Translations under genes and position numbers: made by a program
Source: Candidatus Hydrogenedens sp.
Lineage (GTDB): Bacteria; Hydrogenedentota; Hydrogenedentia; Hydrogenedentales; CAITNO01
Assembly: GCA_012522755.1 (NCBI GenBank)
Contig: JAAYJV010000099.1
Location: 1-32,988 of the forward strand
DNA: 32,988 bases
Direction: 5' to 3'
The notes under the pieces: model-generated
The model's input: the letters and a program-made list of their open reading frames with translations, nothing else
What the model was told of the DNA's origin: nothing
Databases searched by the model: none
Part shown: one piece after another, positions 14,699 to 18,325 of the stretch
How the letters are laid out: each line of letters opens with the position of its first letter
Numbering within the stretch: position 1 is the stretch's first letter

Positions 14699-14854
14699 CG
14701 CATTTCAAGTCCTTATCTTGGAAGGGAAAAAGAGGTGATACAAGCTATATATATCCATCATAACACGACTATCATTGTACCTGCTTGGACTGTGATAATT
14801 ACAGCCCATTGGAAAAAAAGTTTTGGTTCTTTCTTTTTTCACCACAGAGGCACA

Positions 14855-14952
14855 GAGAGGCGAGAGGCGAGAGGCGAGAGGCGAGAGGCGAGAGGCGAGA
14901 GGCGAGAGGCGAGAGGCGAGAGGCGAGAGGCGAGGGGCGAGAGGCGAGAGGC
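14855..14952. repeat. Tandem repeat, 14 copies of GAGAGGC
   Basis: Fourteen head-to-tail 7-bp units with one variant (GAGGGGC at 14932-14938). It follows the phrase 'caccacagaggcacagag' (14840-14857), a common intergenic repeat phrase. Seven is not a multiple of three, so each strand can be read open in all frames; such readings are not genes. Confidence 0.95.
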
Positions 14953-14974
14953 GAAAAAGACGATCGTTTGATTA

Positions 14975-15599: not shown

Positions 15600-17840
15600 T
15601 CAATGATAATTGAAGGGAAGACAATTAAGGACGTGAGGGACTTTTTCGGGAGCTGGTGCATTCAGAACTTCCTGCAGCACCTGCATGGCTGTTGCAGCAC
15701 CGGGCAGGCGATCTCCTATACGGTTCAGAATCACCTGCGCTTCACCATAATAAAATTGAGTGCCCGTAACACAAAAGGCCACTGTGGCAACCATGACTCC
15801 TAAGAGATTCAAGATGAGCCCGTGCGCCTCATCACAACATATCATGAAGGCTTGATCAAAGTAATGATTTGCAAGATTCCGTGCGTCTGATATATCGCTG
15901 TCGACAATAAGCAAAGCACGATATAGATTGATCAATTCCCAGGGATGTTGGAGGGCTGATTCCCAGTCGTCCATTTCCTTCAGGTAATATTGACGCAGAG
16001 GGTGAAGCTCCGGCACAAGATATAGGGCGCGGAGCAAAAGATGGTGGCGATATTCATGATCATGGGACACATCTTTCGCTATCTCGCCGATCTCTTTCGC
16101 TTCCAAAGGAATAATCGTATGAACCAGCTCACGGGCCGTCGGAAAGGAGGCATCCATGGCATTGATGGCACGGTAAATGCCTGTTTGCTGACACTCTCCT
16201 TTTTTCTGCGCTTCCTTCAGGTCCGCCACCTCAAATTTTTCCAGTGCCTGAGCAAAAGACGCTTCCGCTTCGTTGTAAGCACCAAGCATGGAATGATATT
16301 GACCTGCAGCACTGTGAGCACGTCCCTGCATGGCGGGAGTCAGTGCACCAAAGAACTGATCATAAATGATGGCGTCTACCGTCGCTTGCGCCTGATGAAA
16401 CTGAAAACTGTCCGCATAGCTGACAGCCACATTCAAGTCCACATAAGCAGCGAATTCCCGATCATGTATCCGAAGGTCATTTTGTACTTCCTGATATTTT
16501 TCACGTACTTTTCCAGCACTTTCAGGGTCACCATGGTGATTTGCGTCCTGAAGCTGCAAAGCAAAGAAAATCATTTGTATATGCTTCGGCAGATCGTTGG
16601 GATGCACAGTGATCAAACGGATTACATCGCATGAAAGGGTACGCAATTGCCGCAAATCACGTGCTTTGTTCTGATAGCGCTCTTCCAGAGCAACAAGAAG
16701 TTTTTCCTGTAAATCCTGACGCATTGCCAGACGTTCTTTTAAATCTTTCATTACCAGTTTATACAGCGCCGTGCCCCGCGTATCTATTAGAAAATTCAAT
16801 ACTTGATCCACATTGCCCAGCTCTTCCAAACGATCGATATCATCCAGTTGTTGGGATAAATCCAAAGTGATCGGAAGATAACCAGGAAGTTTTTTGTAAC
16901 TGAATTCTCTGTTTAATGCAAGAGCACGTTTTGTCTGATCATTAGCAATATATGCAAGTAAATCAGCATAGGGAATATACTCGAATTCTTTCTCTTCATA
17001 ACGGGCTTCTCGAATATGCCAGCTATCGAAACGCTCCGGCGTCCGATCTTTCATAGCAGCCAAATATCCTTGAAATTTTTGAGTGGCATCAGTCCCCGCC
17101 ACATGTCCTCCAATTCGTTCTACAAAGAAGGAAGCTTCTCTAATGGTGCGCCCTTCCAATCGCAACATCCAGCCTAATAAGACTTTAAAACAGCATTGAA
17201 GCAACATATCGTAATGCTTGGCTGCATTTTCTCTTTCATCATTCAGAAAGATAGGCATAATAAAAGGAAAGCAACGCTGACAGTTCAAAAGCTGCTTCAA
17301 AGAATCATGCATTTCCTCTTCGCTATTTTCACGCAAATGAGTCTTAACCCATGGCAACACGTTGTAATCAGGGCTATCCCCAAACCAGACAATTCCTGCG
17401 AGCACGCCTTCATGACGTGGTCGTGTTGAAAAAAGCATACTGCTGGGCCATAATTCATCAATATAAATACGACACACATTGGGAAGCATTGTTTTTCCTT
17501 CTTCTCGTCTGACCACTAATTTTTTGTCCAAAATTTCAAAATTAGTTTCATGAGACACTATGTAACATGAGACTGCGGAAAACCCCCATCTTTTCTTTTT
17601 TTCATCATAAGCGATAGATACCTCAACGTTTACTATTGACCCCTCCAGTGGAACGAATGAGTTTTCAATTACTGAATGATGAATAAAAATCTCTCTATCA
17701 AAGTTGTCGTTTGTTGCAAATACAAAAGCTGCAAAACGACGCATGATCTTGGCTTCGAAACTCTTTCCCTTGAGTTCTTTTTCCACTTCTGACCGTGTGG
17801 CTTCATGCTGGATGGACTCAAAAGTAAAAAATTTATTCAT
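15600..17840 (-). CDS. Cold-shock-like domain / RNase H-like (DUF3800-like) / TPR-like protein (746 aa)
   Basis: A multi-domain protein that I cannot assign to a named family. Residues about 25-92 read like a cold-shock RNA-binding domain (KSFEAKIMRRFAAFVFAT, EIFIHHSVI, PLEGSIVNVEV, KKRWGFSAV). Residues about 118-335 resemble DUF3800-type RNase H folds by spaced acidic motifs: CRIYIDELW, FFVERIGGH and YIPYADLLAYI. From about 340 on it is helical, with TPR-like signatures such as AGQYHSMLGAYNEAEASFAQALEKFE. No signal peptide or membrane segment. The start at 17840 has GGGAG 5 bases upstream; an ATG 10 codons earlier has none. Base composition is visibly more AT-rich than the neighbours, suggesting transfer. 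A nucleic-acid-targeting, perhaps defence, role is inference. Confidence 0.75.
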   Translation of the reverse strand: MNKFFTFESIQHEATRSEVEKELKGKSFEAKIMRRFAAFVFATNDNFDREIFIHHSVIENSFVPLEGSIVNVEVSIAYDEKKKRWGFSAVSCYIVSHETNFEILDKKLVVRREEGKTMLPNVCRIYIDELWPSSMLFSTRPRHEGVLAGIVWFGDSPDYNVLPWVKTHLRENSEEEMHDSLKQLLNCQRCFPFIMPIFLNDERENAAKHYDMLLQCCFKVLLGWMLRLEGRTIREASFFVERIGGHVAGTDATQKFQGYLAAMKDRTPERFDSWHIREARYEEKEFEYIPYADLLAYIANDQTKRALALNREFSYKKLPGYLPITLDLSQQLDDIDRLEELGNVDQVLNFLIDTRGTALYKLVMKDLKERLAMRQDLQEKLLVALEERYQNKARDLRQLRTLSCDVIRLITVHPNDLPKHIQMIFFALQLQDANHHGDPESAGKVREKYQEVQNDLRIHDREFAAYVDLNVAVSYADSFQFHQAQATVDAIIYDQFFGALTPAMQGRAHSAAGQYHSMLGAYNEAEASFAQALEKFEVADLKEAQKKGECQQTGIYRAINAMDASFPTARELVHTIIPLEAKEIGEIAKDVSHDHEYRHHLLLRALYLVPELHPLRQYYLKEMDDWESALQHPWELINLYRALLIVDSDISDARNLANHYFDQAFMICCDEAHGLILNLLGVMVATVAFCVTGTQFYYGEAQVILNRIGDRLPGAATAMQVLQEVLNAPAPEKVPHVLNCLPFNYH

Positions 17841-17937
17841 GTCAACTCCCGCTGATAGATTGTTTTTCATGTTTGTAAGACAAAGAGATCAGGACACGTC
17901 ACGAAATGACAGTATGGTTCCTTTCGCATCTTTACAT

Positions 17938-17966
17938 ACTATACTTTGTATTGTGCACAAAGTCGA
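17938..17966 (-). promoter_or_regulatory. Promoter with operator-like inverted repeat for the 746-aa gene
   Basis: On the minus strand TCGACT (17966-17961), a 17-base spacer and TATAGT (17943-17938) form a good promoter. The spacer holds a perfect inverted repeat ACTTTGT (17943-17949) / ACAAAGT (17957-17963) with TTGTGCACAA at its centre. A bound repressor would block RNA polymerase. Confidence 0.55.
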
Positions 17967-18040: not shown

Positions 18041-18069
18041 TTGCTACCGAGGCTCTTGCCCTGTATAAT
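18041..18069 (+). promoter_or_regulatory. Promoter of the cobalamin riboswitch transcript
   Basis: TTGCTA (18041-18046), a 17-base spacer and a perfect TATAAT (18064-18069). Transcription would start at about 18076, at the first base of the riboswitch P1 stem. Confidence 0.65.
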
Positions 18070-18075
18070 AATTGT

Positions 18076-18291
18076 ATCGGTCCGGGATTTTTGTTTTGTA
18101 TCCCGGCTAAGAGGGAACCCGGTGCGAATCCGGGACTGCCCCGCAGCGGTAATCGGGAACGACCGACACCGGAAACCTCATGCAAGAAGGTTTCGCAAAG
18201 CACTGGGCCCTTGTGAAGCCCGGGAAGCGGTGTTCAGTAGGTGTACTGTGAAAAGCGCATGTCAAGCCCGTAAGTCCGAAGACCTGCCGAT
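18076..18291 (+). ncRNA. Cobalamin (adenosylcobalamin) riboswitch
   Basis: The conserved core is plain: 'aagagggaacccggtgcgaa', 'tccgggactgccccgcagcg' and, at the 3' end, the B12-box-like 'aagtccgaagacctgcc' (18272-18288). ATCGG (18076-18080) pairs with CCGAT (18287-18291) as P1. It should bind a cobalamin and reduce expression of the downstream surface-protein and pseudopilin genes when B12 is plentiful. A terminator hairpin follows 35 bases later. Confidence 0.93.
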
Positions 18292-18325
18292 GTTACCCGG
18301 GCTTTGTCGCTCGGGAAGACAACAA

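Follow-up and report, generated by a model that had tools for sequence, protein, structure and literature searches.

The window, meaning the whole stretch of DNA analysed here (32,988 nucleotides from Candidatus Hydrogenedens sp.), contains an intact gene at 15600..17870 on the minus strand, whose product joins a cold-shock-like (CSD-like) domain, an RNase H-like domain and a TPR-like tail, and which has a 37%-identical paralog. The open reading frame spans 756 aa without an internal stop; the 746 residues counted in the first-pass annotation correspond to a start at the second Met (Met11), and the upper limit of 17966 given there takes in the promoter region, the reading frame reaching up to 17870 only. 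Base composition agrees with the AT-rich single gene described at that stage (GC 0.438; GC3 0.41 versus 0.53–0.60 in the flanking metabolic genes). A promoter-like site, TCGACT-17-TATAGT (17938..17966, minus strand), is sigma-70-like with a 9/12 match to consensus, which is weak by itself, and is overlapped by a perfect 7-bp inverted repeat, ACTTTGT-N7-ACAAAGT (17943..17963, unstranded), a possible operator. The repeat would be compatible with repression of the gene, and the two elements together fit the earlier idea of a controlled promoter, the tightness of that control being unproven. No comparable operator or promoter site stands out upstream of the paralogs.

Set among metabolic genes, the window copy is an orphan. 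No CRISPR array, Cas gene or defence gene was found on its 33-kb contig, no insertion-sequence genes were seen around it, and the search for tandem or CRISPR repeats nearby returned only a simple repeat of tandem GAGAGGC heptamers (window 14841-14973), intergenic and downstream of the gene. On the upstream side, a cobalamin riboswitch (window 18061-18305, 100.9 bits) precedes a gene for a TSP3-repeat protein and belongs to the next transcription unit, which is unrelated.

At the N-terminus, residues 36-106 (17553..17765, minus strand) likely form a diverged cold-shock/S1-like OB domain, because three profile matches converge on this region. The Pfam model S1CSD-TOTE-2 matches residues 48-101 below its cut-off (E 0.021; 15.3 bits against a cut-off of 27), the C-terminal end of the PADLOC model PDC-M16B matches residues 34-102 (E 6e-4), and a profile of the window protein and its paralog picks a domain at the C-terminus of a TPR-like protein from a distant genome (E 0.0095), and this domain itself matches CspE/CspB in the PDB (E 2e-4). 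These sub-threshold matches bear out, at moderate strength, the cold-shock-like domain that had been called by eye; identity between window protein and paralog in this region is only 19%. The distant protein (L015:1462-3174, genome G115), which is TPR-like and ends in a cold-shock domain (CspE match at E 2e-4), may serve in defence as a sensor built on the same OB module.

The central domain (residues 131-312; 16935..17480, minus strand) is supported by AF2, Foldseek and hhalign results. The spaced acidic motifs first noticed there, IYIDE (residues 135-139), FFVER (248-252) and PYADLL (300-305), are all present and recur in the same order in the paralog as IYIDE, IYLER and PYGDLL, and this conservation of order at 37% identity argues that the three motifs are under selection rather than due to chance. 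Candidate catalytic residues are D138-E139 of IYIDE (17454..17459, minus strand), presumed beta-1 metal ligands that align to DUF3800 YVDES; E251 of FFVERIG (17118..17120, minus strand), the presumed beta-4 acidic residue, which the model places in its fourth strand; and D303 of PYADLLAYIA (16962..16964, minus strand), the presumed last-helix acidic residue, aligned to DUF3800 LQLADL. All four are invariant between the two proteins in a domain that differs at ~61% of positions, as are D211, E212, D221 and D261. The Pfam DUF3800 model (PF12686) gave no match to the window protein up to E 10. An hhalign comparison with an alignment of 19 DUF3800 proteins, drawn from both related and unrelated genomes, aligned both hallmark motifs (YIDES and ADL) in order at a modest E of ~0.01, pairing IYIDE..GVLAGI with YVDES..VFGGI in the first local match and IPYADLLAYIA with LQLADLVAY in the second. 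The first score was reached by 1/200 column shuffles and by none of the reversed, CSD and tail controls.

The full-length AF2 model was poor in its N-terminal half, so residues 118-345 were modelled alone, from an alignment of two sequences only (this segment and the paralog). The resulting low-confidence model (pLDDT 58, pTM 0.55) has the order b1-b2-(aa)-b3-aA-b4-aB-b5-aC. Foldseek against the PDB placed RNase HII first (1eke_B; E 3.2e-5, probability 1.00, TM 0.36), with RNase H2 and H3 taking most of the next places, and against the viral models of BFVD it placed a DUF3800 protein first (E 3e-5, probability 1.00). TM-scores were low (0.36–0.39), as expected for a model of pLDDT 58. The structural check proposed at the outset thus retrieved an RNase H fold, with RNase HII and DUF3800 leading, from a low-confidence model. 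These results point with moderate strength to an RNase H fold of DUF3800 type at residues 131-312, and this domain probably cuts RNA.

The remainder of the chain, residues 346-756 (15603..16835, minus strand; ending ..LPFNYH), is all-helix in the full-length AF2 model, with pLDDT mostly 60–80. Among the best PDB matches of the full model, most were TPR proteins (LGN/Pins, NlpI, Rap, Ctr9), although no match reached E<=0.001, and TPR_12 was found in the paralog at E 8.7e-5, below the cut-off, and in the window protein at E 0.58. The helical model and the paralog match together lend moderate strength to the TPR-like tail initially described. Neuroglobin matches of the window protein in the PDB were set aside as chance (E 0.1 or worse).

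A profile search with window protein and paralog found the family in 1/386 genomes, the other listed matches being short, single domains or repeats. No homologues were found in collections of species genomes, genome contigs, viral contigs, plasmids and phages at the sensitivity available; a Paracoccus plasmid match (E 0.5) aligned with an unrelated 943-aa protein, and a match in genome G057 was a phage tape-measure-like sequence. This distribution rules out the case, raised in the first-pass annotation, that the homologues are universally conserved housekeeping genes. The flanks of the window gene are chromosomal and match the sister genome G010 at 70–73%. The gene is absent from G010, where a clean empty site was considered and rejected, the flanks lying on different contigs and in other contexts. 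Being rare, patchy and low in GC, the window gene is accessory cargo and not a housekeeping gene, and both its low GC content and the lack of the gene in 385 other genomes are in keeping with defence cargo that spreads horizontally. DUF3800 proteins as such are RNase H-fold proteins of wide occurrence, found in 69/339 sampled genomes.

The paralog is encoded in the same genome on contig C79 (L003:9541-11979; 812 aa; 37% identical over residues 122-756), where it is the first gene of a TIGR03986/III-D-like operon. The second is a CARF effector, a TM1812/Csx1 CARF-HEPN gene (TIGR02221/DxTHG type) lying 125 bp downstream on the same strand. Next come genes for a coiled-coil protein, an NrdG-like radical SAM protein, a TIGR03986 RAMP and Cas10 (palm AGDD, without an HD region), and further on a Csx10/Csm3-like fusion and more RAMP genes (Csm3/Csx7-like). 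At the other end of the contig are RT-Cas1, Cas2 and a CRISPR array with the repeat GGTGAATGAAGATGCCCCGACACGAGGGGATTGAAAC, for which this array is the sole site in the genome.

A genome-wide search with PF12686, which is independent of CRISPR, listed a single protein, on contig C20, at an E of ~0.03 (0.026), below the cut-off. This 697-aa protein has a DUF3800-like N-terminus (IYIDESG) and a long tail. Its gene is followed 65 bp downstream by Card1 (CARF + PD-(D/E)xK) and then by Cas10 (GGDD, without an HD region) and a second TIGR03986 operon, the same operonic arrangement with Cas10 and RAMP genes as in the paralog and one not seen for the window copy. At the beta-4 position it reads WFVSP, with no obvious acid, and beyond the DUF3800-type motif no homology to the window protein is detectable, tails included. 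A TIGR03986 search of the genome found operons on C79 and C20 only. Overall, three RNase H-like/long-tail proteins occur in this 4-Mb genome, and two of the three open its only two TIGR03986 operons; by hand estimate, placement within 10 kb of both operons would occur by chance with a probability of order 1e-4 to 1e-3. Both Cas10 palms have GDD without an HD region, so killing would be expected from other effectors. No relatives were detected around TIGR03986 matches in at least 18 other genomes, and the type III association rests on one genome, because none of the 18 other TIGR03986 genomes surveyed carries such a gene. A look for DUF3800-associated RNA motifs at Rfam level gave none close to the window gene, to the C20 gene or to the C79 locus.

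The best explanation, to which we give a probability of roughly 60%, is that the window gene encodes an RNase H-fold nuclease with an OB domain and a TPR-like docking tail and belongs, as its orphan, to a small family in which the paralog is ancillary to a type III-D-like CRISPR-Cas system. Caveats on the family are its two sequences, its single genome, the low-confidence model and the orphan position of the window copy. Because a relative in the same genome opens a type III CRISPR operon, the window protein is probably a defence nuclease and not a housekeeping protein, and we infer that the orphan, too, takes part in defence. Context thus favours the original guess of a defence role, since the paralog and the DUF3800-headed analogue each open a type III CRISPR operon. 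A purely stand-alone system, as suggested alongside it, is not supported, since of the three proteins in this genome two share operons with type III CRISPR genes and the window copy alone is an orphan.

In the mechanism we propose, the TPR-like tail would dock on a partner, which in the CRISPR loci could be the Cas10-RAMP complex or the CARF effector and for the orphan could be the same CRISPR complexes in trans or some sensor. The OB domain would grip RNA or an RNA-containing hybrid and, once docking relieves inhibition, the D138/E139/E251/D303 cluster would cut it with two metal ions. The gene itself, the match at fold level, the conserved acids and the placing of the paralog and the C20 analogue in operons are observed; the metal-dependent cutting, its substrate, the hold of the OB domain on nucleic acid, recruitment through the tail and regulation are predicted. 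The docking switch is modelled on the TPR-CHAT partner of Cas7-11, which is switched by target binding, and TPR-CHAT on Cas7-11 is the nearest precedent for docking activation. TPR-CHAT (Csx29) of type III-E, in Craspase, is a long TPR protein with an enzymatic domain and is linked to TIGR03986/gRAMP-type RAMPs. The window protein resembles it in this architecture and in the TIGR03986/gRAMP-type link but has an RNase H-like domain in place of a caspase, and its docking is predicted only. It likewise recalls Csx1 and Card1, ancillary nucleases of type III loci that adjoin the paralog and the C20 analogue downstream, but unlike them has no recognised CARF domain, so that activation by cyclic oligoadenylate is not predicted. 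Docking activation is favoured over cyclic oligoadenylate because the window protein shows no recognisable CARF or other ligand-binding domain. More tentatively, and short of an even chance, these proteins may be type III ancillary nucleases of a new family (OB + RNase H DUF3800-like + TPR), recruited by docking on TIGR03986 III-D complexes rather than by cyclic oligoadenylate, with the orphan acting in trans or solo.

The combination of TPR and DUF3800 beside CRISPR is already known. A TPR+DUF3800 protein with an RNase H fold and a rearranged catalytic site accompanies a sub-branch of Cas12a2 (Altae-Tran et al., PMC10910872), and a 2025 classification places DUF3800 RNase H-fold nucleases in VI-F and V-A2 (PMC12669027). 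The remark in the first-pass annotation that no characterised family was known with this domain order is therefore not supported, TPR+DUF3800 proteins having been reported in V-A2 loci (PMC10910872). The likeness to these proteins lies in a DUF3800-type RNase H-fold domain and a TPR-like region in one chain that is accessory to a CRISPR locus. In contrast to them, the partner of the window protein's relatives is type III-D-like (Cas10, TIGR03986, CARF effectors), and the window protein adds an N-terminal OB domain, has a sub-threshold DUF3800 signal and is an orphan copy: its gene is not adjacent to Cas12a2, no Cas gene or array lying in the window, and the paralog is in a type III locus. What is new here is the type III host and the added OB domain.

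The strongest rival, possible but rather unlikely in our judgement, is that the orphan is a self-contained, CRISPR-free single-gene anti-phage or toxin-like factor, resembling a TOTE conflict protein with OB domain, RNase H effector and TPR regulator in one chain. TOTE systems, named for TPR, OB, TBP and Effector, are described in PMC12458937 (after Aravind, Iyer et al. 2022), where fusions of TPR and CSD are among their members and RNase H domains are frequent; TPR-like, OB (S1/CSD) and RNase H elements are common to them and the window protein. The closest Pfam model of the OB domain is S1CSD-TOTE-2, the PADLOC match falls at the end of PDC-M16B, and the window gene stands alone with its own promoter-like site and inverted repeat. 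However, the window protein carries all three elements in one polypeptide, its OB match is below the cut-off, no TBP or helicase partner was seen among the flanking genes scanned, neither a TBP gene nor any other TOTE component was seen on the window contig, and the closest relative sits in a type III CRISPR operon. Formally, the window protein belongs to none of the three groups, falling short of DUF3800 by the Pfam cut-off, of the CRISPR TPR-DUF3800 proteins by its neighbour and of TOTE by the TBP. It would work like the V-A2 TPR-DUF3800 protein while sharing parts with TOTE.

It is less probable that the protein, its RNase H-like domain being catalytically inactive, serves RNA and CARF effectors as a scaffold or adaptor. 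The missing beta-4 acid of the C20 protein (WFVSP) and the strong divergence of the OB domain between paralogs (19%) would suit such a role, but the invariance of all four candidate acids across paralogs that differ at ~61% of domain positions argues against it. We give still less weight to a function in processing or degrading CRISPR RNA (crRNA maturation) rather than as an effector. That role was suggested for the V-A2 TPR-DUF3800 protein (PMC10910872), and Cas6 was not recognised among the type III genes scanned in C79 or C20; however, Cas7 proteins of TIGR03986/gRAMP type may themselves mature the crRNA that they use, and an orphan copy far from arrays would be left unexplained. RNase H folds are common to integrases and resolvases, but a domesticated transposase or integrase, or a chance resemblance in a protein with an ordinary cellular role, is very improbable given that Foldseek favours RNase HII/H2/H3 and DUF3800 over integrases, that no insertion-sequence genes were seen around the window gene and that a family in 1/386 genomes is not housekeeping.

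With the reading as an orphan relative of a type III ancillary nuclease preferred, the RNase H-fold/long-tail genes heading two III-D-like operons would extend the DUF3800–CRISPR link to class 1. In the literature found, ties between DUF3800 and CRISPR are to class 2 only (V-A2, VI-F), with none mentioned in type III, and no activity is reported for DUF3800 proteins. The arrangement suggests docking-based nuclease recruitment beside the cyclic-oligoadenylate pathway, and two operons plus one orphan in a single genome offer a concrete test system.

Several other genes were observed on contig C79. Across a divergent gene cluster from the paralog, a 649-aa helical protein (L003:15088-17037) is encoded beside a PIN-domain protein (17087-17743). 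Its end, ..EKLAEAVPFF, resembles the ..LPFNYH and ..MPYSYA ends of the RNase H-like/long-tail proteins, but it was rejected as a further family member since there is no significant alignment. A 455-aa protein (L005:9381-10748), without a match in Pfam or NCBIfam, has a C-terminus that reads like a PD-(D/E)xK nuclease (AEFDCLMITPRGRFIAIDFKS) and is perhaps a second Card1-like effector of the locus. The NrdG-like radical SAM gene (L003:5666-6301) lies inside the III-D-like operon and overlaps the coiled-coil protein gene. Between the type III operon and RT-Cas1, L006:821-10185 is a signalling module encoding two Ser/Thr kinases, FHA, VWA and PP2C proteins and a double AAA protein.
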